DNA of 34,698 nt from Gemmatimonadota bacterium (GTDB lineage: Bacteria > Gemmatimonadota > Gemmatimonadetes > Longimicrobiales > RSA9): the NCBI GenBank assembly GCA_016207445.1, contig JACQPS010000220.1, forward strand, positions 1 to 34,698. The letters run 5' to 3'. How positions within the stretch are numbered: position 1 is the stretch's first letter; each line of letters begins with the position of its first letter. Position numbers and translations under genes: made by a program. This document shows, piece after piece, positions 136-33,450 of this stretch. The notes below the pieces were generated by a model that did not search any database, was not told where the DNA came from, and saw nothing but the letters and a program-made list of their open reading frames with translations.

Positions 136-951
136 TTAGTGGGTAAGTCGATGCTCCGTGGACCCCCCGCCGCGGATGGACCTCTGCGCAGCCGCGAGAC
201 GGCCGCGCAACACATCGAGGGAATCGGCCAGCTGGCCCAGCTCGTTGCGGACCGGTAGCCGGATGGGGGAATCCAGCTTGCCGGCGGTCAGCCCCTCCAC
301 GGCCTCTTCCAGCGAGCGCAGCGGCCGGAAAAGCTGGAGCAGGATCAGCCAGTAGCCGAGCACGAGCACGACGACGCCGGCGGCGAGGAATCCCAGTTGC
401 GCGAGCTTGAGTCGTGCGACCCGGCCCTCCGCAGCCGACTCGTATATCCGGACCGCTTCATCCACCTTGTTCAAAATCGTCGCGGACAGGGTCTCGAGAT
501 CCTCGAGCCCCTGTGTGAACGCAGGGGTGCCTGCTGCCTGCTCCAGCACTGCGTGTGCGCTGCGGTGCAGCGGCTCCCAGTAGTCTCGAACCTCTTCCAG
601 GGCCGCACGGAAATGGCGGTCGGTCGCCGGTGGGAGCTCGACCACATCGCCGCCGTAGGGCACGGACCCACCCTCGATGAGTGCGCGCAGGTCCAGGGCG
701 AACTCGTGCGCCGTGTCGTGCATGCGCTCCAGGTACTGCGGCTCCTGCCCGTGCGCGAGCCCGAGCGCCGCCTCCTTGGCCATTTTCTGGCTGAGCATGC
801 GCTCGCGTCCCGCGAGATTGAGCACGCGCGCGTCGTGCTCCTGCGTGCGCGAGTTCCAGACGCTGGTGGTTACCGATAGCGCACCCACCAGCACCACGTC
901 GACCAGCACGAGGCCGATCGTGAAGCGCAGCGTCAGCCGGGGGACCGCCAC
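136..951 (-). CDS. Membrane sensor with PilJ-type (type IV pili methyl-accepting N-terminal) domain and HAMP, no output domain
   Basis: 271 aa, GTG start; N-terminal TM, 'LNLAGRERMLSQKMAKE' P-box-like motif, second TM, HAMP-like 'FRPLRSLEEAVEGLTAGKLD..NELGQLADSLD', ends shortly after. Confidence 0.75.
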   Translation of the reverse strand: MAVPRLTLRFTIGLVLVDVVLVGALSVTTSVWNSRTQEHDARVLNLAGRERMLSQKMAKEAALGLAHGQEPQYLERMHDTAHEFALDLRALIEGGSVPYGGDVVELPPATDRHFRAALEEVRDYWEPLHRSAHAVLEQAAGTPAFTQGLEDLETLSATILNKVDEAVRIYESAAEGRVARLKLAQLGFLAAGVVVLVLGYWLILLQLFRPLRSLEEAVEGLTAGKLDSPIRLPVRNELGQLADSLDVLRGRLAAAQRSIRGGGSTEHRLTH

Positions 952-955
952 TGCG

Positions 956-1609
956 TTACCAGGCCAGCAAGGACACGAGCAGGATCAACAGGATCAGCAG
1001 GGCGATGCCACCCAGCTCCAGCAACGAGATCGCGATGGTCTCAGCCGCCTTTACGTCCATGAACCCCGCCGCCGCGCCCGTGCCCTTCACCAGAAGCACG
1101 CTCCACGTCAGGATCGTGGCCAGCTCGAGCCCGCGGATCCCCCAGACGACGAGCCCCGGCGCCTGCGGCCGGTCCGCGGAGAAGAGGGCCGACCCGTAGA
1201 AGGCGAGCTCCGTGGGAATCACGATGGCGAGCAGCGGCAGGAACAGCCACGTGGAGTAGCCGAACACGGCGTACATGCGCTCGGTGTCGCCCTCACCGCC
1301 CAGTGCGTCCGCGCTCCAGGAGAGCAGCCCCCCGGCGAAGTAGAGCGCCAGGAAGCCCAGCACCCCGCCCAGCAGCAGCACACCGACCGTGGCGGGCGCG
1401 AAACCGACCCGATCGCCGAGCGCCAGCCACTTGGCGCCGATATACGCGACGAAGATCCCCGAGAGCGCCGAGAAGAAGAGCTCCGGCGCAGCCTCCCGCT
1501 CCGCGCGGCGGAACAACACGGGGAACAGCGCCTTCGGGTGCGGGACCAGCTCCAGGAGATCGACGACGAGTGGCGGCGAGCTCGCAGTAAAACGGCTGTC
1601 GGAGGACAT
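956..1609 (-). CDS. Yip1-like polytopic membrane protein
   Basis: 217 aa from MSSDSRF; multiple hydrophobic segments; RBS-like GGAGGT upstream of the ATG at 1609; 4-bp gap to the next gene. Confidence 0.6.
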   Translation of the reverse strand: MSSDSRFTASSPPLVVDLLELVPHPKALFPVLFRRAEREAAPELFFSALSGIFVAYIGAKWLALGDRVGFAPATVGVLLLGGVLGFLALYFAGGLLSWSADALGGEGDTERMYAVFGYSTWLFLPLLAIVIPTELAFYGSALFSADRPQAPGLVVWGIRGLELATILTWSVLLVKGTGAAAGFMDVKAAETIAISLLELGGIALLILLILLVSLLAW

Positions 1610-1798
1610 CGTCGCACCTCCTGTCGGACACGGAAGCCTCGCTGAAACAGTAGCCCGGGGCAAAGCGCGAATCTGTCGGGCAGCGGTGGAATCCGGGTAG
1701 GGGAATGCCCGACCGGAGTGTTGCGCCGCGCCCGCTCGGCCTCTTTGCCGAAAGAACCCGCACACGCCGGGGCTACGCCCGGTTGTCGGGCCGGAGGG

Positions 1799-1812
1799 CC
1801 ACGTGCACGTGG
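1799..1812. promoter_or_regulatory. Perfect 14-bp palindrome CCACGTGCACGTGG (possible operator)
   Basis: Self-complementary sequence in the intergenic region upstream of the Yip1-like gene. Confidence 0.35.
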
Positions 1813-1909
1813 AGCAAGGGAGAGGCCCGATGGCGGGGGTGCACGGAAATGCGGGACCGACGGGCGACAGCGAAAAAGGCGCGTGGTTGCGCGATGTTTC
1901 CAGTGGGGC

Positions 1910-1960
1910 AAAAGCGCCAGCCGTGGGGGGTCGGGCGACCCGGCTGCCGCTGGCGCAAAA
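1910..1960 (-). terminator. Compound hairpin/terminator downstream of the cupredoxin gene
   Basis: GCGCCAGC (1914-1921) pairs with GCTGGCGC (1949-1956), inner GGGTCG/CGACCC stem; followed by TTTTGCC on the minus strand. Confidence 0.55.
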
Positions 1961-2034
1961 ACGCCCACCCCGGCCGGCCGGAGCCGGTCAAAATGTCCTA
2001 CCGGGGCCTATTAGAGTCGGCCGGTGATCGGAGC

Positions 2035-2724
2035 TCAGGAGCCGAATACGAAGTCGAGCGACGCGATCTGCCCGTCCTGGATCACGATCTCCCGCCGCAA
2101 CTCGCCGAGCTGGGCGTGCCAGGAGTGCAGCACGTAGCGCCCGGGGGGGACGTCTCTGATCTCGAACACGCCGTCGGGCGCGGTCAGGGCGTAATACGGG
2201 TGGTCGAAGACCCAGATGGCGGCGCGCATCCACTCGTGCGCGTCGCACTCGACTTCGATCAGACCCGGTCTTGCCAGGGCACGACGGTTCTTCACCTCTA
2301 CGCCGCGGCCGGGAAGGCCGAAATTACCCACCGTGCGCCGCGTGTGGTACAGATGCACGTTGTGCATGAGGGGGTCGAGGTTGCGCAGCGTGAGGACCGC
2401 TCCGGCCTCGGCCACCTGAACGGGCGGATCGAAGTCGCACCGAACGTTGGCGAGGGTTACAGCGCTCGAGCGGGTAGCCACCGGGATCGGTCCTTCCAGG
2501 AACACCACGCTGTTGGCGACCCGGCTATTGCGTACGAGCAGGTGGCGCGATGGCACCGTTGCGCCACATACGTCCGCGTCGGTCGTGACCTTGAGCTGCT
2601 CGGGCGTCGGCGCCGGGCCGCGGTAACTGACCGTACCCTTGACCGCGCCGCGCTGCCCGGCCGCGGACGTGGCGGTCGACAGAAGCACGAGCAAGCCAAG
2701 CGCAAGCTTGGTGGGCGTTGTCAT
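2035..2724 (-). CDS. Secreted cupredoxin/carboxypeptidase-regulatory-like protein (methylamine-utilization-protein type)
   Basis: 229 aa, signal peptide; 'DPLMHNVHLYHT' and 'VECDAHEWM' (H...C-x2-H-x2-M) plus C-terminal 'GVFEIRDVPPGRYVLHSWHAQLGE'. Confidence 0.7.
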   Translation of the reverse strand: MTTPTKLALGLLVLLSTATSAAGQRGAVKGTVSYRGPAPTPEQLKVTTDADVCGATVPSRHLLVRNSRVANSVVFLEGPIPVATRSSAVTLANVRCDFDPPVQVAEAGAVLTLRNLDPLMHNVHLYHTRRTVGNFGLPGRGVEVKNRRALARPGLIEVECDAHEWMRAAIWVFDHPYYALTAPDGVFEIRDVPPGRYVLHSWHAQLGELRREIVIQDGQIASLDFVFGS

Positions 2725-2738
2725 TCTAGCCTCAGGGA

Positions 2739-3833
2739 TCAGAAGTACGCGTGCATTTCCAGGCTGACGCGGTCCACGTCCGTGCGGGCCTGCGGGATGT
2801 CCTGGAGCAACGTGTAGAACGCGGAGAGCTGGAGGAAAGCCACCGGGAACGCTTCCACGCCGAAGCGCGCGCGAACGCGGGCGTTCTCCGCGATTTCGGT
2901 GTCGGGGTCGAGGAAGCCGTAGGTGAGTTTCACGTTGAGCCCGCGGCGGAGCAGGACGTCGCCTTCCACGTACGCGGCGAGGCGCTCGACGCGCCCGCTG
3001 GCGGCGCCGTCGTCTCGCACGAGGTCGGCCTCGCCGAGCAGCGTGATCCGCCCCGTGCTCACGCCCGCGTATCCGCCCAGCACGGTCCGGCGACTGCCGC
3101 CGCCCTCGTTGCGCGACGCCGAGGCACCCAGCCGGAGGCGACGAAGGGCGAGCGCCACGCTGCCGGTGATTTGCTTCGCATCGTCGGCCTCCGCCGCGCC
3201 CTGGCTGCCATTGGACAGGGCCACCACGATCGTGAGTGACCCTGGCTCGATTCCCAGCTCGAGCCCCTGGTCGGGCGTATCGTAGGTAAAGCCGGTCTGC
3301 TCGCGTATGAACTCGCGGTCATCGGGCAAGCGTAGCCCGTACGGGAGCAGGAACTTTCCGGCTTTTACGTAGCCGTTCGCCGGCAGCCCTTCCAGCAGCA
3401 CGAAGGCTTCGCGGGCCGATGCGCCCGCGGGGCCGAGCGTCTCGTCGAAGTAGACGGTCAGGCGATCGGCCACGGGGCGGAGCTCGAGTTGCACGTTGGA
3501 CTCGTCGATCTCCACGGCGGCCCGTGGTGTGCTCCGTCCGATCGTGCCGAATGCCGCGACCCGAAGGTTGCCGCCGACCGCGGCAAAATCGTTGAGCGAG
3601 CGACCGCGGAACCCCGTCGGACGTAATGGGAGTCGCGTCTGCCCGTAAATATTCCCGAAGGCGTTGCGCCCGCCGCCGCCCGTGCGGTTCGTGTGGCATT
3701 GGGAGCATTGAAGCCCGGTTCGCACGGCCAGGTACGGCTCGGCCGCGGCCGCCGTTGGAATCCATTCGAGGAGGAGGGCGGCGGCGGAGAGAGTGCAGGG
3801 AATGCGCAGCCACATCGTCGTCCTCCGTTTCAA
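2739..3833 (-). CDS. N-terminal single-heme (CSQCH) protein with beta-barrel-like C-terminal region
   Basis: 364 aa (or from MWLRIPC at +6); signal peptide, 'RTGLQCSQCHTNRTGGGGRNAFGNIYGQ', then alternating amphipathic beta-rich sequence ending in '...LEMHAYF' (terminal aromatic). Confidence 0.7.
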   Translation of the reverse strand: MKRRTTMWLRIPCTLSAAALLLEWIPTAAAAEPYLAVRTGLQCSQCHTNRTGGGGRNAFGNIYGQTRLPLRPTGFRGRSLNDFAAVGGNLRVAAFGTIGRSTPRAAVEIDESNVQLELRPVADRLTVYFDETLGPAGASAREAFVLLEGLPANGYVKAGKFLLPYGLRLPDDREFIREQTGFTYDTPDQGLELGIEPGSLTIVVALSNGSQGAAEADDAKQITGSVALALRRLRLGASASRNEGGGSRRTVLGGYAGVSTGRITLLGEADLVRDDGAASGRVERLAAYVEGDVLLRRGLNVKLTYGFLDPDTEIAENARVRARFGVEAFPVAFLQLSAFYTLLQDIPQARTDVDRVSLEMHAYF

Positions 3834-4264
3834 TCAGGAGCGCCGGCCGCGATCCACTGCCGAATCGCGTTCAGCTCCTCCGCCGTGAGCGGCGCCAGTC
3901 CGAGCGGCATACGGCCGCCGGTGATCCCGGCACGACCCTCCAGCTTCCAGATGAGGTAGCTGGAGTCCGGCTGGCTGGGTCGGACGCGCAGCATTGCGGG
4001 TTGCTCCACGCTCGCGACGCCCACGAGGTTTGCGCGTGCCACGCCCGCGTCCAGCGCGAGGCCGAGCGGGGCCGATGCGCCCGTATGACACGCGGCGGCG
4101 CAGATCGGCGAGAAGATCCGTTCCTGGATCGAGGACAGTGTGGGCGCGAGTGGACCGGCCGGCGTCCGGACGGGCCGGCCGAACTCGTCGAGCCCGGTGC
4201 CGTCGCCGACGCAGCCGCCGACCAAGGCGAACGCGAGCAGTGGCCAGCGATGTTCCACCCTCAT
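3830..4264 (-). CDS. Small lipoprotein with CX3CH (CAAACH) putative heme site
   Basis: 144 aa, lipobox-like 'FALVGGC'; 'ERIFSPICAAACHTG...SYLIWKLEGRAGITGGRMPLG..LTAEELNAIRQWIAAGAPD' is typical of cytochrome c-like lipoproteins; overlaps neighbours at both ends. Confidence 0.7.
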   Translation of the reverse strand: MRVEHRWPLLAFALVGGCVGDGTGLDEFGRPVRTPAGPLAPTLSSIQERIFSPICAAACHTGASAPLGLALDAGVARANLVGVASVEQPAMLRVRPSQPDSSYLIWKLEGRAGITGGRMPLGLAPLTAEELNAIRQWIAAGAPD

Positions 4265-5274
4265 GGCTTCCCCGCCGCAGTGCGCGCCGCGCCGACTGCA
4301 GCCTCCGCATCCTCCCGCAACAGGCGGTACGGTAGCGAAGGGCGTCGCTCGAGGGATTGGATGTAGTAGACGAGCGCCCACAACCGCCGTTCGACGAGCG
4401 CGTCCAACGCGGCTGGCGACATGGCGGCCAGCTCGGCGGCGTTGGGTTCCCGCGTCAAGTAGGTCGCGGCGCCATCGAACTCTGCCGGCGGGAGCCGGCG
4501 CCGCAGCCCCGCCACATCGGCGTTCGCTCCCCCGGCGTACGCCAGCACGCTCGGCTCCAGCGCCGGCATCGGTGTACCGCTCAGCCCGGTGCGCAGTGTG
4601 CGGTAGAGTGCCTCGGGCGAGCCGCCGTTCTTGTAGGCACCCCGCGTGAAGTCGTAAGGGCGGATGGGGTCCCCGTAGTCGTCCGAGAGTCGCCGCGCCG
4701 AAGGTCCGTTTCCGCGCCCGCGCTCCCCATGGCACTGGGCACAGCCCAGCACCGCATAGACCCAGGGCCCTTCCGAAATCAGCTCCCGCGACCGGCCTGG
4801 AGGAGAGGGAAGGGGTACCGGAGGGTCGGGGGCTTCGGTCCGAAACGTCGGCGCGAAGCTCTTGATATAGCGGACGAGCGCCCAACACTCGGCCTCGGTC
4901 AGCCGAGTGCCCCATGCGGGCATCCAGGTTCCGGCAACGCCCTGTGAGATCGTGCGGAACAGGTCCTGGTCGCTCGGCAGCGATCCCGACGGCGTCGTCC
5001 GGAACTTGAAAACACCGGCCGTGAAGTCGCGTGGTCGAGGCAGGCCGAGGCCCCGTGCGGCGGGCCCGCGGCCGTCGCCCCGCGCGCCGTGGCACGCGGC
5101 GCAGGCATCCGCGTACAGCCGCGCCGCGTCCACGGCCGAGACCAGGTCAGGCACAGCGCTGGGGGGCGCTTGGGCGGAGCAGACGGGAACCGGCCCTCCC
5201 AGCGCGAGCAGGACGAGCACGCCCACGTGCCCGGGTAGCTGGGCCGGTCGTGCTCGCCCGCGATGCTCAGCCAC
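4261..5274 (-). CDS. Diheme c-type cytochrome
   Basis: 337 aa, signal peptide; CAACH and CAQCH motifs each with downstream Met-containing segment (GTWMPAWG, GTPMPALE). Confidence 0.85.
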   Translation of the reverse strand: MAEHRGRARPAQLPGHVGVLVLLALGGPVPVCSAQAPPSAVPDLVSAVDAARLYADACAACHGARGDGRGPAARGLGLPRPRDFTAGVFKFRTTPSGSLPSDQDLFRTISQGVAGTWMPAWGTRLTEAECWALVRYIKSFAPTFRTEAPDPPVPLPSPPGRSRELISEGPWVYAVLGCAQCHGERGRGNGPSARRLSDDYGDPIRPYDFTRGAYKNGGSPEALYRTLRTGLSGTPMPALEPSVLAYAGGANADVAGLRRRLPPAEFDGAATYLTREPNAAELAAMSPAALDALVERRLWALVYYIQSLERRPSLPYRLLREDAEAAVGAARTAAGKP

Positions 5275-5280
5275 GGGCGC

Positions 5281-6243
5281 TCACCCCGCGCTGACGGCGA
5301 TGCTGCCGATCATCCCCTTCTCGGCATGCTGAGGAAGGGTGCAGCGCGTCTCGTACGTGCCGGTCTTCGTGGGTACAACGAACAGGTAGGTGGCCCCCCC
5401 TACCATGAGCTCCACCGCCTTCAGGTACGGCGCCTTGATCTCCGCCTGCGTGTCTTCCGCCTTCCGCCACACCGTGGTCTTGAAGAACTCGGCCGCCGTC
5501 CAGTAGTGCTTCTCCACGTTGCCAGCGGCGCTCTCCAGCCGGATGCGGTAGCCGGTACCCTGCAGCAACGTGAGGTCCTTCGGCACGAAGGTGAAGGTGG
5601 GCGTTTCCTGCACGCTAATGGTCAGGTCCACCCGCGTCTGCCAGACCGTGTGCGAGCTCGACCGCCGGCCATCGCTCAGCAGCGTCGCGTCGAAGTCCGT
5701 CGCGATCTCCAGGTCCAGCTTGTTGTCCTCGCCTCCCGTGATCACGAACTGCGCGGTCATGCCCGCTTCCTTGTGCCCCGGAATCGTGCACACGATGTCG
5801 TACGTTCCCGGCAGGACCGGCACGAAGTACAGGTCCAGCGCGCCCCCGACCATCAGCTCCACTTCGCTGAAGTACGGCGCCTTGTACTCGGCCTGTGACG
5901 TCTCGATCTTCCGCGTCGCGATCGCCTGGTAGAAGTTGCCCAGGCCCGTCGGCGAGACATAGTGCTTCAGCACGTTCGGCGATCCGTTCAGGATGCGCAG
6001 CACGTACGGCTTCCCGGCCTCGAACGTCAGCCGGTTCGGCGAGAACGACAGGGCCCCCGTGGGCGACTCCACCATCGTCAGGGTCACCACGGTCTTCTGG
6101 TCCCAGTTTACCGACGCCAGCCAGTCGGTAACGGTGACCGGTCCCGCGAGCTCCGGCTCGGTGCCGTTGTCGTCGCACGCTCCGGCCACGGCCCCGAACA
6201 GGACGAGCCACAATCCTGTTCCCTTCCAGCGCCTTGCCGACAT
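5281..6243 (-). CDS. Lipoprotein with two tandem azurin-like cupredoxin domains
   Basis: 320 aa; lipobox-like 'GAVAGAC'; duplicated pattern KHY...AE(Y/I)KAPY..(V/A)VELMVGGA...GTY...CT(I/L)P(G/Q)H..(A/K)GM, i.e. H, C-x4-H-x4-M in both halves. Confidence 0.8.
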   Translation of the reverse strand: MSARRWKGTGLWLVLFGAVAGACDDNGTEPELAGPVTVTDWLASVNWDQKTVVTLTMVESPTGALSFSPNRLTFEAGKPYVLRILNGSPNVLKHYVSPTGLGNFYQAIATRKIETSQAEYKAPYFSEVELMVGGALDLYFVPVLPGTYDIVCTIPGHKEAGMTAQFVITGGEDNKLDLEIATDFDATLLSDGRRSSSHTVWQTRVDLTISVQETPTFTFVPKDLTLLQGTGYRIRLESAAGNVEKHYWTAAEFFKTTVWRKAEDTQAEIKAPYLKAVELMVGGATYLFVVPTKTGTYETRCTLPQHAEKGMIGSIAVSAG

Positions 6244-6332: not shown

Positions 6333-6382
6333 GTGCCTTGTCTCCAGGGCAGGAAGCGCACCGGAGACACTCGGCCTGGCAC
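6333..6382 (-). other. Second leader hairpin upstream of the double-cupredoxin gene
   Basis: Minus strand GUGCC-(AGGCCGAG)-UGUCUCC-17 nt-GGAGACA-A-GGCAC. Confidence 0.4.
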
Positions 6383-6539: not shown

Positions 6540-7970
6540 TCAGAACGCCACGTCCAGGCGGATCCAGAGGGAATGCGGTCGGCGGGAGTCGCGCTGCGGT
6601 GGGGGCGCGTCGGAGGCGTACAGATCGCCCTCGACCACGGCACGTACGTTCTGGCGCACGAGCAGCACCAGGCCTGGAAGCACGCGTGTCTGATCGGCGT
6701 CGGTCACGGTGAAATCGCTTTCCGCGGACGCGTCGGTAGTGAAGTAATCGAGCTTGAGTGAGCCGATGAGCCACGGTAGAAAGAGCACCTCGGCCTTGCC
6801 GAAGAGGCTCGACCAGCTCAGGGCGCCCGGTGAATCGGGTCCCCAGGGGTTCTCGTTGCGGGCTGCCATCCACCCGAAGCCGAGGTCCAGGGGACCGTAG
6901 AGCGTCCGCGCGTTGACGCCGAAGGCGCGGTGTCGGTCCTGGCTGCCTCGGGCCACGGGCTCGGCCCCGGCGTAGCCGAAATGCTCGAGGATGATGCTGC
7001 GATCCATGAGCTGGCCGCGACCGCCGGTAACGGGCCGGCCACCGGGCGGATAGGTCCCGTCCAGCCGGAGCCCGCCGAGCTTGTAACGCAGCTTGTAGTA
7101 GATGTCCTTGTGATTGTTGTTGTCGGCTGTCTGCGCGCCGGCGCCCTGGGCGAGGCCGACCGCGTAGAAGAGGCGACCCGCCGCGGCCAGGCCATTCAGC
7201 TCCAGCGCGGGCTGGCTCTGCCGTAACTGGAATTCATTGGCCGAGCGCGCGCCGCGCCCTGCTCCGCCGAGCTCCAGGTCGGACGCCCGGAACTGCTGCC
7301 ACAGGAAATTCTCCCGGGCGGCCCGATCGATCTGACGGTCCGCGAACGTGAAGAGATAGAGGTTCTGGAGGCCGACCCACAGGTTGAGCGCACGCGGAGG
7401 CAAGATGGGCAGGAAGTCCTGAAACTCGAGCTTGGCCTGGACGAGCTGGGTGCCGCGCTCCCGGCTCCATTCGAGCTCCAGGAACGCGGCCACACCCTCG
7501 CCGAGCGTGGTGCCGGCCAGGAGATAGATCTCGTGGGGGAAGCGGTAGCTCCAGCTCCGGCCCCCCGCCGCGCCGCGGCTTACCTGCACGTCGTTCTGAA
7601 TGCGTAGTGCCAGTGGCACGGCCGCAGGGAGCTCGCCCGGCCAGATCGCGCGCGGCCACAGGTCCTTCCAGGGGTCCTCGCCGAGCGGCACGGGCTCGTC
7701 GCGGCGCAGCAAGGCATCGTTTTCCGGAAAGCGGTAGCCATTCAGGCGGAACGCCTCGCCGAGCACGTTCAGCTTCGGCGCGGCCGTGTGGCAGGTCGAG
7801 CACGTGGTGCGGTACTTCCGCGAGAACGCCGGGATCGGGGCTTCCGGTGCAGGTCGTAGCGCGTGAGGTGTGGTGGCCGCCGTCGTCGCGGAACAGGCCA
7901 GGATGCTTGCCGCGATCAGAAGCCGGCTGTGCGCCCGGGTGTGGCGCCGTGGACGGGAGCGCCCGCTCAT
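6540..7970 (-). CDS. N-terminal single-heme (CSTCH) protein with porin-like C-terminal region
   Basis: 476 aa from MSGRSRP; 'FSRKYRTTCSTCHTAAPKLNVLGEAFRLNGYRFPE' then long beta-rich region ending 'RRPHSLWIRLDVAF' (terminal Phe). ATGA overlap with the upstream gene. Confidence 0.75.
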   Translation of the reverse strand: MSGRSRPRRHTRAHSRLLIAASILACSATTAATTPHALRPAPEAPIPAFSRKYRTTCSTCHTAAPKLNVLGEAFRLNGYRFPENDALLRRDEPVPLGEDPWKDLWPRAIWPGELPAAVPLALRIQNDVQVSRGAAGGRSWSYRFPHEIYLLAGTTLGEGVAAFLELEWSRERGTQLVQAKLEFQDFLPILPPRALNLWVGLQNLYLFTFADRQIDRAARENFLWQQFRASDLELGGAGRGARSANEFQLRQSQPALELNGLAAAGRLFYAVGLAQGAGAQTADNNNHKDIYYKLRYKLGGLRLDGTYPPGGRPVTGGRGQLMDRSIILEHFGYAGAEPVARGSQDRHRAFGVNARTLYGPLDLGFGWMAARNENPWGPDSPGALSWSSLFGKAEVLFLPWLIGSLKLDYFTTDASAESDFTVTDADQTRVLPGLVLLVRQNVRAVVEGDLYASDAPPPQRDSRRPHSLWIRLDVAF

Positions 7971-8605
7971 GACCGGGTCGACTTCGCGTGCCGCCGGTCC
8001 GACGCGGCTTCGAGCTCGACTTCCAGGCGGATGCTGGTGCCGTCGCGCACGAGCAGCGGCCGCTCGTACGGCCGGGTGCGCGGGTGCCAGACGTGTAGCG
8101 CGTAGCGCCCGGCCGGCAGCTGCAACCGGAACCGCCCATCGCGATCCACCACGCTGTGGTAAGGCGTTGGAATAACCAGCACGTAAGCCACCATCTCGGG
8201 GTGGACGTGGCAAAGGATAACGTGGGCACCCGGCTCGGCGAAGGTGTGTTCCCGCCGCTCTCCGCGCGGATACGTGCCCAGATCGAAGCCGCTGCCGGGG
8301 CCTGCCGGCCCGAACACGTTGTGCAGGATTGGATCGCTGTTCCGGAATTGGACACGGCTGCCAGGCAGAACCGGGAGAACACGCGGGACGAAGCGGAGGT
8401 TCACCTGGTCGATCAGATGCGACGTCGGTGGGGGGCGGAGCGCCTCGGCTGCGCCAGTGGGTTCGGCCGGGACCAGGAAGACGACGGCCCCCGTCAGGCG
8501 CACGTTCAACGCGCTGAGCGTGCCCTCGAGCTGCGCCTGCGCGGCAACCCAGCCGGGGAGTGCGAGCAGCCACGCGGCCGATAGAACGACGATGCGCGCT
8601 CGCAT
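7967..8605 (-). CDS. Secreted cupredoxin/carboxypeptidase-regulatory-like protein
   Basis: 212 aa, signal peptide; 'DPILHNVFG...VILCHVHPEMVAYVLV' and C-terminal 'RFRLQLPAGRYALHVWHPRTRPYERP'. Confidence 0.75.
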   Translation of the reverse strand: MRARIVVLSAAWLLALPGWVAAQAQLEGTLSALNVRLTGAVVFLVPAEPTGAAEALRPPPTSHLIDQVNLRFVPRVLPVLPGSRVQFRNSDPILHNVFGPAGPGSGFDLGTYPRGERREHTFAEPGAHVILCHVHPEMVAYVLVIPTPYHSVVDRDGRFRLQLPAGRYALHVWHPRTRPYERPLLVRDGTSIRLEVELEAASDRRHAKSTRS

Positions 8606-10002
8606 TATGCCGAGTCGGCGCGTGGCGGCTCGCGCAGCTGGGCGAGCCAGCGGTGAAGTGTGCGTCGGCTCAGACCGGCCGCGCGGGCCGCACGCGTGAC
8701 GTTGCCCCCGTGCTCTTCGAGCAACCGCGTGAGGTACGACGCGTGGAATGCCCGGAGTGCCGCCCCCCGCGCCGCTTCGTACTCTAGGCTCGTCGCCGCC
8801 GCGGGAGCGGATCCGGGCGCGGCCGAGAGCGGGAACCGCAACGTCTCCGGAAGATCGGAGCGCGTGATCCGGCCATCTTCGTCCAGCACGACCAGGCGCT
8901 GGGCCAGGTTCTTCAGCTCCCGAATGTTGCCTGGCCAGGCGTAGCGTTCGAGCAGCTCCCAGACGTCCGGCGACACCTCGGGAACCTCCTTCCCGTGGAG
9001 CTGACCGAACTGGCGCAGAAACGTCTGCAACAGCAACGGGATGTCGCCCCGCCGCTCGCGCAGCGGCGGTACCCGCAGCGGCACGACATTGAGGCGATAG
9101 TAAAGGTCCTGTCGGAAATCTCCCGTCGCCACAGCAGCTTCTAGCTCGATGTTGGTGGCCGCGACCAGCCGGATATCGAGGTCGATCAGCTGAGTGGCGC
9201 CCAGCCGCCGGACCTGCCGCTGCTCGAGCGCCCGAAGCAGCTTCGACTGGAGCGCTGGGGGCAGCTCCGTGAACTCATCGAGGAACACGGTGCCCCCATT
9301 CGCTTCCACCAGGAGACCCTCCTTGCGCGCGACCGCTCCAGTGAAGGCGCCCCGCTCGTAGCCGAACAGTTCACTCTCGAGAAGGCCCTCGGGGAGCGCT
9401 GCGCAGTCCACCGCTATGAACGCGCGGCCCTTGCGCGCGCTATTCGCATGCACGCAGCGTGCGATCAGCTCCTTGCCCGTGCCGCTTTCGCCCGAAATCA
9501 AGACATTCGCGTCCGTGGGCGCCACCTTCCGGACGCGGTCCATGAGCCGGACCATCATAGGGCTCGTCGAGCCGATCACCCCGTCGAAGCTGAGCGTTTG
9601 GCCTACCTGCTCCCGCAGAGCCCGATTCTCGACCCGCAGCCCGCGGTAGCGAACGGCGCGCTCGACGGCCACGGCCAGCTGCTCGCCCGCGAACGGTTTG
9701 GCCAGGTAATCAAAAGCCCCTTCGCGCATCGCCTGCACCGCGGAAGCGAGGCTCGCGTATGCCGTGATGACGACAACGGGCAAGTCCGGGTCGTCGGCCA
9801 GCGCCACGGCCAGCAGGGTCATACCGTCGACATCAGGGAGGCGGAGATCGAGAAGCAGGACGTCGGGGCGCGAATCCGCCAGCACCGCGCGGAGCTGCTT
9901 CGCTTCGGCAAGGCCGACGCAGACATGCCCCTCGCGCTCGAGCAGCCTCCGGCAATTCTCGAGCATCGCGGGCTCGTCGTCTACAATCAGGATATGCGCC
10001 AT
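8605..10002 (-). CDS. NtrC-family sigma54-dependent response regulator
   Basis: 465 aa: receiver (VDDEP, DVLLLDLRLPD, KPFA), AAA+ with GESGTGKE, GAFTGA, and C-terminal Fis-type HTH. Confidence 0.95.
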   Translation of the reverse strand: MAHILIVDDEPAMLENCRRLLEREGHVCVGLAEAKQLRAVLADSRPDVLLLDLRLPDVDGMTLLAVALADDPDLPVVVITAYASLASAVQAMREGAFDYLAKPFAGEQLAVAVERAVRYRGLRVENRALREQVGQTLSFDGVIGSTSPMMVRLMDRVRKVAPTDANVLISGESGTGKELIARCVHANSARKGRAFIAVDCAALPEGLLESELFGYERGAFTGAVARKEGLLVEANGGTVFLDEFTELPPALQSKLLRALEQRQVRRLGATQLIDLDIRLVAATNIELEAAVATGDFRQDLYYRLNVVPLRVPPLRERRGDIPLLLQTFLRQFGQLHGKEVPEVSPDVWELLERYAWPGNIRELKNLAQRLVVLDEDGRITRSDLPETLRFPLSAAPGSAPAAATSLEYEAARGAALRAFHASYLTRLLEEHGGNVTRAARAAGLSRRTLHRWLAQLREPPRADSA

Positions 10003-12278
10003 GCCGCCTCGAAGGAGGTCGCGGGGAATTCCACGGTGAACCGACTGCCGGTCGGGCCGCTGTCCACCCGAATTTGCCCGTGGTACCGCTCCACGATGCT
10101 GCGGCAGACGGCCAGACCCAGGCCGGTCCCGCCCCTCGGCCCCTTGGTCGTGAAGAACGGTTCGAAGATCCTCCCTCGCAGCTCGAGCGGAATTCCCGAA
10201 CCGCGGTCCTGGACCTCGAGCTCCACCGCCTGGGCACCGCGTGCGGCGCAGACGCGGAGAGCCACCGTCGCCCCCGTAGGGCTGGCATCCGCGGCGTTGA
10301 GCAGGAGGTTCATGCAAACGGTTTCGAGGGCGTTCGCGCTGCCGTGCATGGTCGGGACCGCGCCATCGGTGAACACCTCGAGCGCCAGACCCCGGGCGGC
10401 GAATGTCCGCTCGAGGAGGGCAGAGACTTTCCTGGCGACCTCGGCGAGGTCGATGGGCCCCGCCTCGTCGGGAGTCTCGTCGGCGAAGCGCAGCAGGTCC
10501 TCTGTCAGCGACCGAAGCCGGGCGATGTGGTCCCGCAGGACGGCCAGGTCGGCGTCTAGGATGCACTCGCCGCACCGCTCCCGGGCATCGCGCTCCATGC
10601 ACTCGACCCGGTTGGTCAGGATGGCCAGCGGGTTGTTCAACTCATGGGCGAGGCCCGCGGCCATGACGCTCGTCGCCGCAAGGCGCTCCGATCGGCGCAG
10701 CTGCTCCTCCAGCCTGGCGTGGAGCGTGTTGTCGCGCACGATCAGCGACGAGCCCAGCAGCTGCCCGTCATCACTTCGAATGACGGTCTGCGTCAGGCTC
10801 ACGGCGATCTGCCGGCCATCCTTTCGCCGCCGTGTCGTCTGGTAGTTCGCCACGGCGCCCTTTCGCGCGAGCTCGCGCGTGAGCCACGCCTGCTCCCGCG
10901 TCATTTCGCCCGTGGTCGACTGGAGAAGCTCGGCCGCTTCACGTCCGAGTACCTCCGCGGCCGAGTACCCGAACAGGTCCTCGGCGCCCCGGTTCCACAC
11001 GCGAACACGACCATTGACATCCAGCCCCACGATCGCATCCGCTGAATGCGCGAGCAGGTCGGCCAGCTCAGCGTGCTTCTCGCGCAGCGCGCGCGTCCGC
11101 TCCTGCACGAGGTCTTCCAGCCGTTTCCGGTAGGCCGTGAGCGCTTCGGCCATCGCCGAGAAATCGGTCGCCAGGTCTTCCAGCTCGTCGTTCGTGGCCA
11201 CGTGAAGTGGTTCGGCGGCGCCTTCGCGCTCGAGGCGTCGCGCGGCCTGCTGGATCTGGTAGATGGGGCGAGTGAACTGCCGCGCGGCCAGCACCGCCAA
11301 TCCCAGCACCAGCACGAGCAAGCTGACGCCCACGACCGCCACCCAGCGGAGGTATCTGTTCACCGGGGCCTGAACGACGCGTAGGGGCAACGCTCGGTAC
11401 AGCGTCATCGGCCCGATGGCCGGATTGTCCAGCGCGAGCCGGGCGTAGCTCACGATCCGGCCATCCTCGAGGGACAGCGTTCCGCTACCGGCGAGCACGG
11501 CCGCGGCGGCCTCGGCCGGAAGATCTCGGCGCAGGTTCGCCTCGGCCCGCATCGCGAGCAAGCTCGACCAGTCCCGCTTGCGCGTCGAGTGGTAGAGGTA
11601 ACGCCCAGCGGAATCCACCAGCCCCGTTGCGCTGGGCATGTGTGGTGAGGCGACCTCCAGACCCGCGAAGAGGGCCGATGCGCGCGCCTCGCCGACCACG
11701 GCGCCGCGCAACGATTCCGCCTCCCACACCGGAATCAGAATCGCGATCGCCGGGAGGCGGGCTGCGGGATCGAGCTGCGTGTCTGCCCGAAGCTCCACCG
11801 GGATGATCAGCCGTCGCCCCGGCTTCGTCGAGCGGGCGCGCCAGAGGTAGTATGCCCCTTCCGCTTCGCTGGGCTCGGCGAGGGTGTCGGCGGACGAGGC
11901 GCGGCCCCGGAAGAGCACGTTCCCGGTGGCATCGACGAGTTTGACCTGGTAGAGGTGCCGCTTCTGACCGAGGAGCCCCGAGACGAATCCGCGGGTCTCC
12001 GACCAGCGCGACTCGCCGGGTGAATCGAGCAATGGCGCCAGCAGCGCCGCCAGGTAGGCTACGTCCTGCTCGGTCTGTTCCAGCGCGCGCTCGGTCTGCG
12101 TGCGGGCCAGCTCCAGATCATGCACCAGCGTCGCCTCCGCAGTTGCGCGCAGGTGCCCCACCGTGGCTCGCGTGACAATGGCGCCGGCAATGGCGAGAGG
12201 GCCGAGCGCCAGCAACGCGAACGCGATCGCCAGCTTGGTGGCGATCGTGAGGCGGGGAAACAGCTTATTGAGGTTCAC
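9987..12278 (-). CDS. Membrane sensor histidine kinase (periplasmic sensor domain-HAMP-PAS-HisKA-HATPase), NtrB-like
   Basis: 763 aa; two TMs around a ~270-aa extracytoplasmic region, HAMP, PAS ('DAIVGLDVNGRVRVWNRGAEDLFGYSAAEVLG'), H-box 'AAGLAHELNNPLAIL', N/G boxes. Confidence 0.93.
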   Translation of the reverse strand: MNLNKLFPRLTIATKLAIAFALLALGPLAIAGAIVTRATVGHLRATAEATLVHDLELARTQTERALEQTEQDVAYLAALLAPLLDSPGESRWSETRGFVSGLLGQKRHLYQVKLVDATGNVLFRGRASSADTLAEPSEAEGAYYLWRARSTKPGRRLIIPVELRADTQLDPAARLPAIAILIPVWEAESLRGAVVGEARASALFAGLEVASPHMPSATGLVDSAGRYLYHSTRKRDWSSLLAMRAEANLRRDLPAEAAAAVLAGSGTLSLEDGRIVSYARLALDNPAIGPMTLYRALPLRVVQAPVNRYLRWVAVVGVSLLVLVLGLAVLAARQFTRPIYQIQQAARRLEREGAAEPLHVATNDELEDLATDFSAMAEALTAYRKRLEDLVQERTRALREKHAELADLLAHSADAIVGLDVNGRVRVWNRGAEDLFGYSAAEVLGREAAELLQSTTGEMTREQAWLTRELARKGAVANYQTTRRRKDGRQIAVSLTQTVIRSDDGQLLGSSLIVRDNTLHARLEEQLRRSERLAATSVMAAGLAHELNNPLAILTNRVECMERDARERCGECILDADLAVLRDHIARLRSLTEDLLRFADETPDEAGPIDLAEVARKVSALLERTFAARGLALEVFTDGAVPTMHGSANALETVCMNLLLNAADASPTGATVALRVCAARGAQAVELEVQDRGSGIPLELRGRIFEPFFTTKGPRGGTGLGLAVCRSIVERYHGQIRVDSGPTGSRFTVEFPATSFEAAWRIS

Positions 12279-12928: not shown

Positions 12929-13720
12929 TCAGAGAGGCTTGAACGTGACGGGAAGCGCGACCCACACGGGGACGCGGCGATCGCGGTTCTGGGCCGGGCT
13001 GAAGCGCATGATCTCGGCGACGCCGAGCGCGGCCCGATCCAGCGCTTCGAAACCGCTGCTCGTGTGGACTCGCGCGTTCTTCACTCGGCCCGTCTCGTCG
13101 ATGAAGAACCAGACCACGACCTGCCCGCCGATGCCCGCATCACGCAGTACCGGCGGATAGGATCTCTGCAGCGCGGCCTGCGTTTCCTTCCGGTTGAGCA
13201 GCTCGGGCGCGACCGTATAAGGCGTGAAGACCGGTGCCGCCGAGAGGTCCTCGCCCGGGACGGGCGGCGGCGGCAGGTTCTCGATGGGGTTTTCCTCGAA
13301 TGTCGTCGGCGCGATGGTGATGTCTTCCTCGATTGCGGCCTCCGCCACGATGGGGGTGGCCGGCCGCGCGACGTGCTCGGGCGGCGGCGGGATCTCGATC
13401 TCGGGCGGCAGCTCCACCGTCTCCAGCTCGGAGGCCGCGAACGAGATGTCGGCTGCCCGCATCTCCGGCCAGTAGCGGAACAGCAGGAAGTGCAGCAGGG
13501 CGGCGATCGCGATCGAGATCCAGAAGAAGCTCTCCGCGCGCTGCTTGAACCGGTCGTGCGCGGTCACCGGCTGCGCGGCACGCACCGCGATCGGGGGAGT
13601 CGACGTCGTCGTCGCCGCGATCCCGGCAAGCGCAGGCGCCGCCGCCGTCTCGGTATACGGAGGCGCTGCTGCGCCCTGCGGCGGGGCGTCCTTCTGGGCT
13701 CTGGCAGCAGTCGCAGGCAT
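12929..13720 (-). CDS. TonB-family energy transducer-like protein (start may be 13792)
   Basis: Single N-terminal TM, Pro/Glu-rich linker, C-terminal TonB fold 'YPPVLRDAGIGGQVVVWFFIDETGRVKNARVHTSSGFEALDRAALGVAEIMRFSPAQ'. Confidence 0.85.
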   Translation of the reverse strand: MPATAARAQKDAPPQGAAAPPYTETAAAPALAGIAATTTSTPPIAVRAAQPVTAHDRFKQRAESFFWISIAIAALLHFLLFRYWPEMRAADISFAASELETVELPPEIEIPPPPEHVARPATPIVAEAAIEEDITIAPTTFEENPIENLPPPPVPGEDLSAAPVFTPYTVAPELLNRKETQAALQRSYPPVLRDAGIGGQVVVWFFIDETGRVKNARVHTSSGFEALDRAALGVAEIMRFSPAQNRDRRVPVWVALPVTFKPL

Positions 13721-13801
13721 GTCGGCTACCGGACCGGCCTTGCCAATCCGCCCGCGAGCGCCGGGCGGCCCAAGGAGGGGGCCGCCCGGCACTGGCCGTG
13801 A

Positions 13802-15151
13802 TTACGATACGCCATACGTGTCCTTCAGCGCCTGAATGGAGGCATTCAGCAACGCCTCCAGCAGGAACGGATTGTGAACCCCGCGCGAGCCATCTTCGGC
13901 CAGCAAGCTGGCGTTGAATTTGGCGCCCTCGCCCACGGTGATCTTGCCGTCATTCGTCTTGAACTCGGTGGCGGGCACCTTCGCCACCAAACGGTTCACC
14001 TCGGCCGTGAGCGCCTGCATGCGGGATTCCAGGGTCAGCGTGGCCGACCGCGCAGCAGCCTCCGAGCCGTGGCAACCGCCGACGGCGCAGGAGCGGAAGC
14101 TGCGCTGGCTCACCTCGCAGTCGCCCGGCGTCGGTTTCCCCTCGGCATCGAGGCAGGGGATCGCCTTGAAGAGGTGTCCCGTGGCCTGAAAGGCGAAATT
14201 GCCCGTCGCCTGGTCCGTCACCGTGAAGCCGTCGACGTGGCAGCCCGCGCACAGCTTGGCGTTCCGCTCGCTGCCGTGAGTCGCGATTAGCCTGGTGGTA
14301 TCGAAGACGAAGTTGGGCGGCCGCCAGCCGGCGTCGCCCAGCAGCATGGGGCCCTGCGGCGAGTGGGCGCCGCGCGGGGTGGTCGGATCCGGCTCGGAGC
14401 GCTTGTGATGGCAACGGATGCAAAGGTTCTGCTCCGGGTCCGGCGCATCGATGGCGAAGCGGAGCTGCCCCGCGTTGGCCGAGCCGTGCGGGTCGTGGCA
14501 AACCGAGCAGGTGATGCCGTACAGCTTGCCGTCGGACTTCTCCAGGTACTCGGCCGTCTCGCCGAAGGCCTGGAGGGCCGTCTTGCCTTCGTGGCAGCTC
14601 AGGCAGGCTGCGGAGGTGGCGTGCTCGTTGAACCTCGCGTGCGCTGACTGGGACCACTCCTCCACGAAGCGGTGCGTGTCCTGGTGGCACTCGCCGCACC
14701 CGGTCGCGGTGTCCACGGCGAAGCCCGCCAGCGGCTGCGTCGCGTCCGGGTTCTGCACGTGCGTCAGCCCCGCGCCGTGGCAGCTCTCGCACTGCACATC
14801 GTGGTAGCGGGTGTCGCCGGTCGCCGTGTAGGCGACGGACGTCGTCGCCGCGTTCCCCCGCTGACTCACCGTGTGGCAGTCGTTGCACAACGGCTGGGCG
14901 CTGCCGCTGGCCTGGAGATCAGCCCAAGCCTGAGCGTGCGCCGATTCCTGCCACCAGCTCTGCTGCCCGACGTGGCAGTTGCCGCACACCGCCAGTTTTT
15001 CCTCCTGCTTGCTGTAGCCCAGGAAGCCTGCCGCCGCATCGGGCGGATCCTCGTATGCGGGGAAGTCCCGGTAGATGATGTCCTCATCGACGCAGCCAAC
15101 CAGGACCCCAGCCGCCACGAGCAGGCCCAGGGCCCGAATCTCTCGACGCAT
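13802..15151 (-). CDS. Multiheme c-type cytochrome lipoprotein (8 CXXCH + 1 CX4CH)
   Basis: 449 aa from MRREIRA; lipobox-like 'GVLVGC'; CGNCH, CNDCH, CESCH, CGECH, CLSCH, CSVCH, CIRCH, CAGCH and CAVGGCH; RBS GAGGAGGG. Confidence 0.92.
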   Translation of the reverse strand: MRREIRALGLLVAAGVLVGCVDEDIIYRDFPAYEDPPDAAAGFLGYSKQEEKLAVCGNCHVGQQSWWQESAHAQAWADLQASGSAQPLCNDCHTVSQRGNAATTSVAYTATGDTRYHDVQCESCHGAGLTHVQNPDATQPLAGFAVDTATGCGECHQDTHRFVEEWSQSAHARFNEHATSAACLSCHEGKTALQAFGETAEYLEKSDGKLYGITCSVCHDPHGSANAGQLRFAIDAPDPEQNLCIRCHHKRSEPDPTTPRGAHSPQGPMLLGDAGWRPPNFVFDTTRLIATHGSERNAKLCAGCHVDGFTVTDQATGNFAFQATGHLFKAIPCLDAEGKPTPGDCEVSQRSFRSCAVGGCHGSEAAARSATLTLESRMQALTAEVNRLVAKVPATEFKTNDGKITVGEGAKFNASLLAEDGSRGVHNPFLLEALLNASIQALKDTYGVS

Positions 15152-15247
15152 CTCCACCCTCCTCAGTGGACGCGCCCGCGCTCTCGCATCGACTCCACAC
15201 GCCGCAACGGCGCTGGCCACTCGCTCGCGTTCGGGTTCTTACCGACT

Positions 15248-33033: not shown

Positions 33034-33055
33034 CATTCGCACGTGCGTGCGAATG
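33034..33055. promoter_or_regulatory. Candidate metalloregulator operator (9-4-9 inverted repeat)
   Basis: CATTCGCAC-GTGC-GTGCGAATG at the start of the ArsR-family gene. Confidence 0.6.
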
Positions 33056-33060
33056 AAACC

Positions 33061-33450
33061 GTGAGCGCGCGACCCGGGCTGGAGGTCTGCACCGCCCCCT
33101 GCTTCAACCAGGAGCTGGTGAGGCGGCTGCGCGCGCACCTGCCGGCGGAAGACGAGCTGGAGCGGGCGCGGGCAGTGTTCGCGGGTCTGGCCGATCCCTG
33201 GCGTCTGAGGATCGTGCGGGCGCTGGCGATGGCCGAGGAGCTGTGTGTGTGCGATGTGGCGCACGTGCTGGGTACGACCGTGTCCACGGCCTCGCATCAC
33301 CTGCGGCGGCTTCGGCGGCTGGGTCTGCTGCGCTACCGGAGTGACGGGAAGATGGTCTACTACTCGCTGCGCGACGGTCTGGCCGCGGAGCTCGTGCGGC
33401 AGGTCCTGGCCCTGGAGGGGAGGCGCGGGCATGCCCGGAGGGGAGCGTAG
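33061..33450 (+). CDS. ArsR/SmtB (CadC-like) metal-responsive repressor (start could be 33043)
   Basis: Metal-site-like 'ELCVCDVAHVLGTTVSTASHHLRRLRRLGLLRYRSDGKMVYYSL' and N-terminal 'CTAPC'. Confidence 0.9.
   Translation: MSARPGLEVCTAPCFNQELVRRLRAHLPAEDELERARAVFAGLADPWRLRIVRALAMAEELCVCDVAHVLGTTVSTASHHLRRLRRLGLLRYRSDGKMVYYSLRDGLAAELVRQVLALEGRRGHARRGA

Follow-up and report, generated by a model that had tools for sequence, protein, structure and literature searches.

A putative, divergent Cyc2-type cytochrome-porin encoded with lipoprotein and diheme cytochromes in Gemmatimonadota

We analyzed the gene at positions 2739-3833 of a 34,698-nucleotide stretch of DNA from a Gemmatimonadota bacterium, hereafter the window, which is one entire contig of a 2.83-Mb, 388-contig assembly. 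The gene, here called BB1, is present in a single copy in that assembly and lies on the minus strand among the following features.

1967-1984, minus strand: terminator-like hairpin with a T-run, just past the MauL2 gene; such sites occur in the region at chance level
2035-2724, minus strand: MauL2, a secreted MauL-like protein with an HN...C-x2-H-x2-M copper pattern and a carboxypeptidase-regulatory-like domain (domain search)
2739-3833, minus strand: BB1, a real open reading frame for a 364-aa secreted single-heme (CSQCH) protein, classed from family alignment and profile homology as a divergent Cyc2-type fused cytochrome-porin
3693-3707, minus strand: predicted heme c attachment motif CSQCH of BB1 (residues 43-47), invariant in 20 relatives
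3830-4264, minus strand: lipoprotein-type cytochrome c of 144 aa with a CX3CH motif (CAAACH), within the frame 3830-5095, sharing a few bases with both the BB1 gene and the diheme gene
4261-5274, minus strand: diheme cytochrome c; closest structure 6h5l_B ("conserved hypothetical cytochrome protein"), E 7.7e-52
5281-6243, minus strand: double-domain cupredoxin with two type-1 copper patterns (C-x4-H-x4-M) and distant rusticyanin/sulfocyanin-like scores
6540-7970, minus strand: P0002, the CSTCH protein, a Cyc2-like fused cytochrome-porin reading PxF(S)RKY-CxxCH-PxL (signature definition, PMC8406198)
7788-7802, minus strand: heme motif CSTCH of P0002 (residues 57-61), from the sequence
7967-8605, minus strand: MauL1, of the same kind as MauL2 (HN...C-x2-H-x2-M read from the sequence), partner of the Cyc2-like gene
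8605-10002, minus strand: NtrC-type sigma-54 response regulator, a member of module A (see below), with its start placed from a domain boundary
9987-12278, minus strand: sensor histidine kinase, conserved in module A

Along the minus strand, the order is kinase, NtrC, MauL1, P0002, a 300-bp gap, double cupredoxin, diheme cytochrome c, lipoprotein cytochrome, BB1, MauL2, and the hairpin, which from its placement alone is likely to mark the operon end. The double cupredoxin has no PDB chain match by sequence, and a literature search found no paper describing structure 6h5l. The window contains nine matches to the sigma-54 promoter consensus, a number reached in 86 of 100 shuffles; since these sites do not exceed chance, control of the BB1 operon by NtrC is without sequence support. 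The inverted repeat TGTCTCC/GGAGACA at 6339-6369, ahead of the cupredoxin gene, was set aside, as it is not conserved in the related locus L019. Elsewhere in the window, a lipoprotein-type multiheme cytochrome with eight CXXCH motifs and one CX4CH motif (13802-15220, minus strand) is followed by a TonB-like protein (12929-13792), and an ArsR-like regulator (33043-33450, plus strand) lies upstream of a permease-like membrane protein frame that is cut off by the end of the contig.

The BB1 gene has 364 codons from a TTG start at 3833, where four bases (TTGA) are shared with the end of the preceding gene; an ATG at 3815 is a possible alternative start. The protein opens with a clear signal peptide, read from the sequence as MKRRTTMWLRIPCTLSAAALLL...AAAA/EPYL, and from residue 43 onward it runs as CSQCHTNRTGGGGRNAFGNIYGQTRLP, the presence of which we verified. 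About 300 residues follow the heme motif, and the C-terminal residue is Phe. The original prediction of a single heme agrees with the one CSQCH motif in BB1, whose C43, C46, and H47 are invariant across 20 aligned relatives from two phyla; because of this invariance, we regard the CxxCH motif as not arising by chance. Among the 11 closest relatives, N49, G52-G54, R56, F59, G60, and the C-terminal Phe are also invariant. His361 in the last strand is His in 18 of 20 sequences, would point into the barrel judging from strand alternation, and is a candidate distal heme ligand, and the family alignment shows about 20 invariant charged residues within the barrel part. The beta-barrel had been put forward as a guess. 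BB1 is indeed predicted to form an outer-membrane beta-barrel, judging from its alternating hydrophobicity (18 candidate amphipathic strands), weak Porin_4 matches in three of the 11 family members (best E 0.003), and the C-terminal aromatic residue, and AlphaFold2 models of the lone sequence, built with no family alignment, were uninformative for both BB1 (pLDDT 31) and P0002 (pLDDT 30). Searches of Pfam, NCBIfam, and the PDB returned no entry matching BB1, and relatives were found neither in a viral collection nor on plasmids.

We compared BB1 with P0002, the CSTCH protein of this locus. The two were said to differ clearly, and they do: their identity in the family alignment is 15%, and the best BLASTP match, 21 bits over 23 residues, is not meaningful. 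A tandem duplication is rejected on the basis of this low identity and the lack of a usable BLASTP alignment. The BB1-type and Cyc2-like groups (20 and 25 sequences) of a 45-sequence tree are reciprocally monophyletic with support of 0.97 and 1.0 and a long branch between them, which bears out the earlier view that no recent duplication is involved. Profile comparison nevertheless links the two. An hhalign comparison of 11 BB1 proteins with 28 Cyc2-like proteins, a target set that includes no experimentally studied Cyc2 sequence, gives a probability of 97.2 and a score of 86 over 269 columns, with an E-value of 2.8e-11 that applies to this single comparison only. Thirty column-shuffled controls score 11.7-19.4, and the reversed alignment likewise reaches at most 19.4. 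With the heme part removed, the barrel part of BB1 still matches the Cyc2-like proteins with a score of 57.6 (probability 94; shuffled controls at most 18.6), whereas other barrels, namely a heme-less porin-like protein and three other outer-membrane-type proteins, score 14-20. A diheme cytochrome control scores 31.8 over the CxxCH motif, about as high as the BB1 heme part, so similarity of the heme part was set aside as sole proof of homology. The residues preceding the heme motif of BB1 are in register with the Cyc2 motif (P at -10, L/F at -8, A at -7, R/K at -5, and T/Y at -4). Judged from these profile comparisons, BB1 and P0002 are distant members of one superfamily, the Cyc2-type fused cytochrome-porins, and the BB1 clade can be placed as a new branch of that known superfamily, one that has no model in the libraries searched.

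The published Cyc2 signature consists of AXPXFAR[Q/K][T/Y] before CXXCH and PXL after it, with a length filter of at least 365 aa (PMC8406198). BB1 has a single CXXCH near the N-terminus behind a signal peptide, and the controlled hhalign comparison points to homology with Cyc2-like sequences. Before the heme, it reads AEPYLAVRTG, in which A, P, A, the basic residue, and T agree with the signature, while F is replaced by L and the R after A by V. Four residues past CXXCH, NRTGGG is found in place of PXL, and at 364 aa the protein is one residue short of the filter. P0002 reads PAFSRKY..CSTCH..PKL, the Cyc2 signature with one substitution (A to S), and its orthologs have PAFARKY or PAFARRY/RQY, most of them carrying the exact signature. 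Because BB1 fails the PXFAR-type motif and the 365-residue filter and has no Pfam or NCBIfam model, its clade would be passed over by Cyc2 searches. Two distant BB1-type members (L126 and L127) read CHVNPSGGG where the BB1 family proper has NRTGGG.

BB1 shares with Cyc2 (Mariprofundus Cyc2-PV1, Acidithiobacillus Cyc2, and Leptospirillum Cyt572) the signal peptide and the single N-terminal CXXCH, followed in BB1 by a predicted fused barrel, and both are accompanied by a diheme cytochrome c and cupredoxins. For the Cyc2 barrel, 16 strands are predicted; BB1 has 18 amphipathic candidates. BB1 differs in having CHxNRTGGG instead of PXL, an incomplete AXPXFAR[Q/K][T/Y], and a length of 364 aa. The Cyc2-like proteins of the window's phylum, including P0002, have the architecture and superfamily in common with BB1 but show 15% identity, form a separate clade, and have an operon of their own (kinase-NtrC-MauL1-Cyc2-like). 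Among other systems, the closest known gene set is the rus operon of Acidithiobacillus, cyc2-cyc1-cup-cox-rus, which encodes Cyc2, the diheme Cyc1, a cupredoxin, and an aa3 oxidase (PMC10654088); as in the window, a cytochrome-porin, a diheme cytochrome, and a cupredoxin are encoded together. The window adds the lipoprotein cytochrome, the MauL-type proteins, and a second cytochrome-porin, its cupredoxin has two domains, and no oxidase gene was seen in its operon. The MtrAB, MtoAB, and PioAB systems, in which a separate multiheme cytochrome sits in a 26-strand barrel (PMC8406198), would by analogy share with BB1 the purpose of moving electrons across the outer membrane, but BB1 is one chain with one CXXCH and a small predicted barrel.

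The genes surrounding BB1 fall into two modules: module A contains the histidine kinase, NtrC, the MauL-like cupredoxin, and the Cyc2-like protein, and module B contains the lipoprotein cytochrome and BB1. In the window's phylum, BB1 is present in 12 of 298 genomes, and the lipoprotein cytochrome gene adjoins it at 11 of the 12 loci. Most of these loci are two-gene units with no other electron-transfer genes, often beside a gene for pyrroline-5-carboxylate dehydrogenase. The NtrC-MauL1-Cyc2-like set, with the kinase where the contig reaches that far, recurs as a conserved unit in seven further genomes of the phylum. Of the loci examined, only those of the window's family contain both modules together. 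In another genus of this family (genome G084, locus L019), gene order matches that of the window from the end of the Cyc2-like gene through MauL2, and the cupredoxin at the same position is 71% identical to that of the window; MauL homologs near BB1 are found in L019 and also in L002, L122, and L123. A Cyc2-like gene is present in 8/12 genomes with BB1 and 85/286 others (Fisher p 0.011), and the P0002 subfamily in 3/12 and 7/286 (p 0.005), both values ignoring shared ancestry. From gene order and sequence, the window locus is best read as two usually separate modules that have been joined. Thus, the proposal of two distinct families at one locus holds in so far as separately travelling modules have come together, but the families are not unrelated, since profile comparison places them in one Cyc2-type superfamily.

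The original prediction depended on BB1 being linked to electron-transfer genes elsewhere, and such links are found in other genomes, where BB1 lies beside cytochromes, a bc-type complex, or an NxrA-type enzyme. A single-sequence search of genome contigs with BB1 found only L002, a contig of a Myxococcaceae metagenome-assembled genome, and strong matches occur in 7 of the 195 genomes of that phylum. In L002, the gene next to BB1 encodes the lipoprotein cytochrome, as it does at each of the five close Myxococcota-side loci for which upstream sequence is available. The diheme cytochrome c gene adjoins BB1 or lies within 0.5 kb of it in the window, in L019, and at 8/8 Myxococcota-side loci that include the downstream side. 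A Rieske/cytochrome b/octaheme complex is encoded within 6 kb of BB1 in L122, L123, and L125, and reading of the encoded sequences points to an alternative complex III near BB1 in L121. The L002 neighborhood of BB1 also encodes a MauL protein and a molybdoenzyme whose N-terminus is of the export type (281-3724, minus strand); this enzyme matches Kuenenia nitrite oxidoreductase subunit A (7b04_B) over its full length with 1720 bits. It is 64% identical to an NxrA-type enzyme (L073, 14681-18130, minus strand) of G003, which belongs to the window's phylum but not to its class; there, the gene lies within 10 kb of MauL and Cyc2-like genes. These Kuenenia-type enzymes of L002 and L073 were assigned by sequence and could carry out either nitrite oxidation or nitrate reduction. 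An NxrA-type gene is present at one of 21 BB1 loci, and a search of the window's genome for such a nitrite oxidoreductase was negative; a literature search found no paper joining a cytochrome-porin, a single heme, and nitrite oxidoreductase. Since both neighbor MauL and a bc-type complex, the BB1 and Cyc2-like branches keep the same company. A conserved cluster at L086, L087, and L088 (genomes G005, G007, and a second locus of G003) encodes a Cyc2-like protein, MauL, a large oxidoreductase-like protein, a Rieske protein, a split cytochrome b, and an eight-heme cytochrome, with an adjoining kinase-NtrC pair.

The conserved operon partners, the invariant heme motif, and the homology to the Cyc2-like superfamily lead us to propose, with a probability of roughly 0.6, that BB1 is a divergent Cyc2-type outer-membrane cytochrome-porin that, together with the lipoprotein and diheme cytochromes, forms an inward single-electron path from a small donor. 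The model put forward for Cyc2 (PMC8406198) has the cytochrome closing the barrel at its periplasmic mouth, with soluble Fe(II) entering the pore. The N-terminal plug domain of BB1 would similarly face the periplasm and hold one heme c in a barrel presumed to lie in the outer membrane, with a strand number and heme loading that we predict from the sequence features above. A small soluble extracellular donor, most plausibly Fe(II) if Cyc2 is taken as the model, would reduce BB1; electrons may then pass on the periplasmic side to the lipoprotein cytochrome and the diheme cytochrome c, and from these through the MauL-type and double cupredoxins to a bc-type complex, alternative complex III, or a terminal oxidase, the order of carriers and the inward direction being the most plausible arrangement. 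In the window organism, BB1 is paired with a second Cyc2-like protein, nearer the published signature and encoded beside an NtrC-type two-component system. The genome contains four heme-copper oxidase subunit I genes as possible electron sinks and nitrate-reductase-like narG/narH genes, and no RuBisCO was found in it; autotrophy and a mixed or heterotrophic lifestyle are therefore equally likely. Several observations count against the proposed reading: PxL is absent from BB1, the AlphaFold2 models give no direct view of a barrel or plug, the two-gene unit stands without other electron-transfer genes at most loci of the window's phylum, and the RuBisCO marker does not indicate autotrophic growth on Fe(II).

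The same gene content of porin-cytochrome, periplasmic cytochromes, and bc-type complex or alternative complex III is neutral as to direction, and the window also encodes the multiheme lipoprotein-type cytochrome at 13802-15220, as might be expected if BB1 exported respiratory electrons through the barrel, lipoprotein, and diheme chain to extracellular acceptors. We consider such an outward function unlikely, because the Cyc2 proteins, the characterized examples of this architecture, are Fe(II) oxidizers (PMC8406198), one heme would conduct poorly to bulky acceptors, and the copper carriers suggest a high potential. BB1 could instead act mainly as a pore selective for nitrite/nitrate or a metal ion, with a heme plug that gates or senses, and so serve neighboring enzymes instead of carrying electrons. 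The invariant charged residues of the barrel would suit an ion pore, and L002 has the NxrA-type enzyme nearby; this is quite unlikely given that cytochromes are the constant company of BB1, while NxrA-type genes are rare at its loci and missing from the window genome. Recruitment of two unrelated heme-barrel families to one locus would fit the low identity, the deep split in the tree, and the weakness of heme-part similarity as evidence by itself, but the barrel match well above shuffled and other-barrel controls and the pre-heme motif in register make it very unlikely. That BB1 is a plain heme-less porin whose CxxCH arose by chance, as the weak Porin_4 matches might suggest, is scarcely credible given a motif invariant across two phyla and a conserved operon with cytochromes.

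If BB1, read as a Cyc2-type cytochrome-porin, has the electron-transfer function of its relatives, extracellular electron uptake is commoner than present counts suggest. In the window, genes for two divergent cytochrome-porins and for copper carriers lie next to a single two-component system, and the recurring three-gene set of lipoprotein cytochrome, BB1, and diheme cytochrome is small. More tentatively, BB1 may represent a second, uncatalogued clade of single-heme outer-membrane electron-uptake proteins (CxxCHxN[RP][ST]GGG) that has dedicated lipoprotein and diheme cytochrome partners, spans at least two phyla, and in some myxobacteria is coupled to a nitrite-oxidoreductase-type enzyme; lithotrophy based on cytochrome-porins could then extend beyond what Cyc2 filters detect.

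The heme motif of the lipoprotein cytochrome that partners BB1 varies among the loci compared, L021, L024, and L121 among them: it is CX3CH (CAAACH) in the window, CX4CH in many relatives (e.g., CAFSGCH), and CXXCH in L121. One genome (G401) carries two BB1-type genes at separate loci (L126 and L121), each with its own downstream diheme cytochrome c gene.
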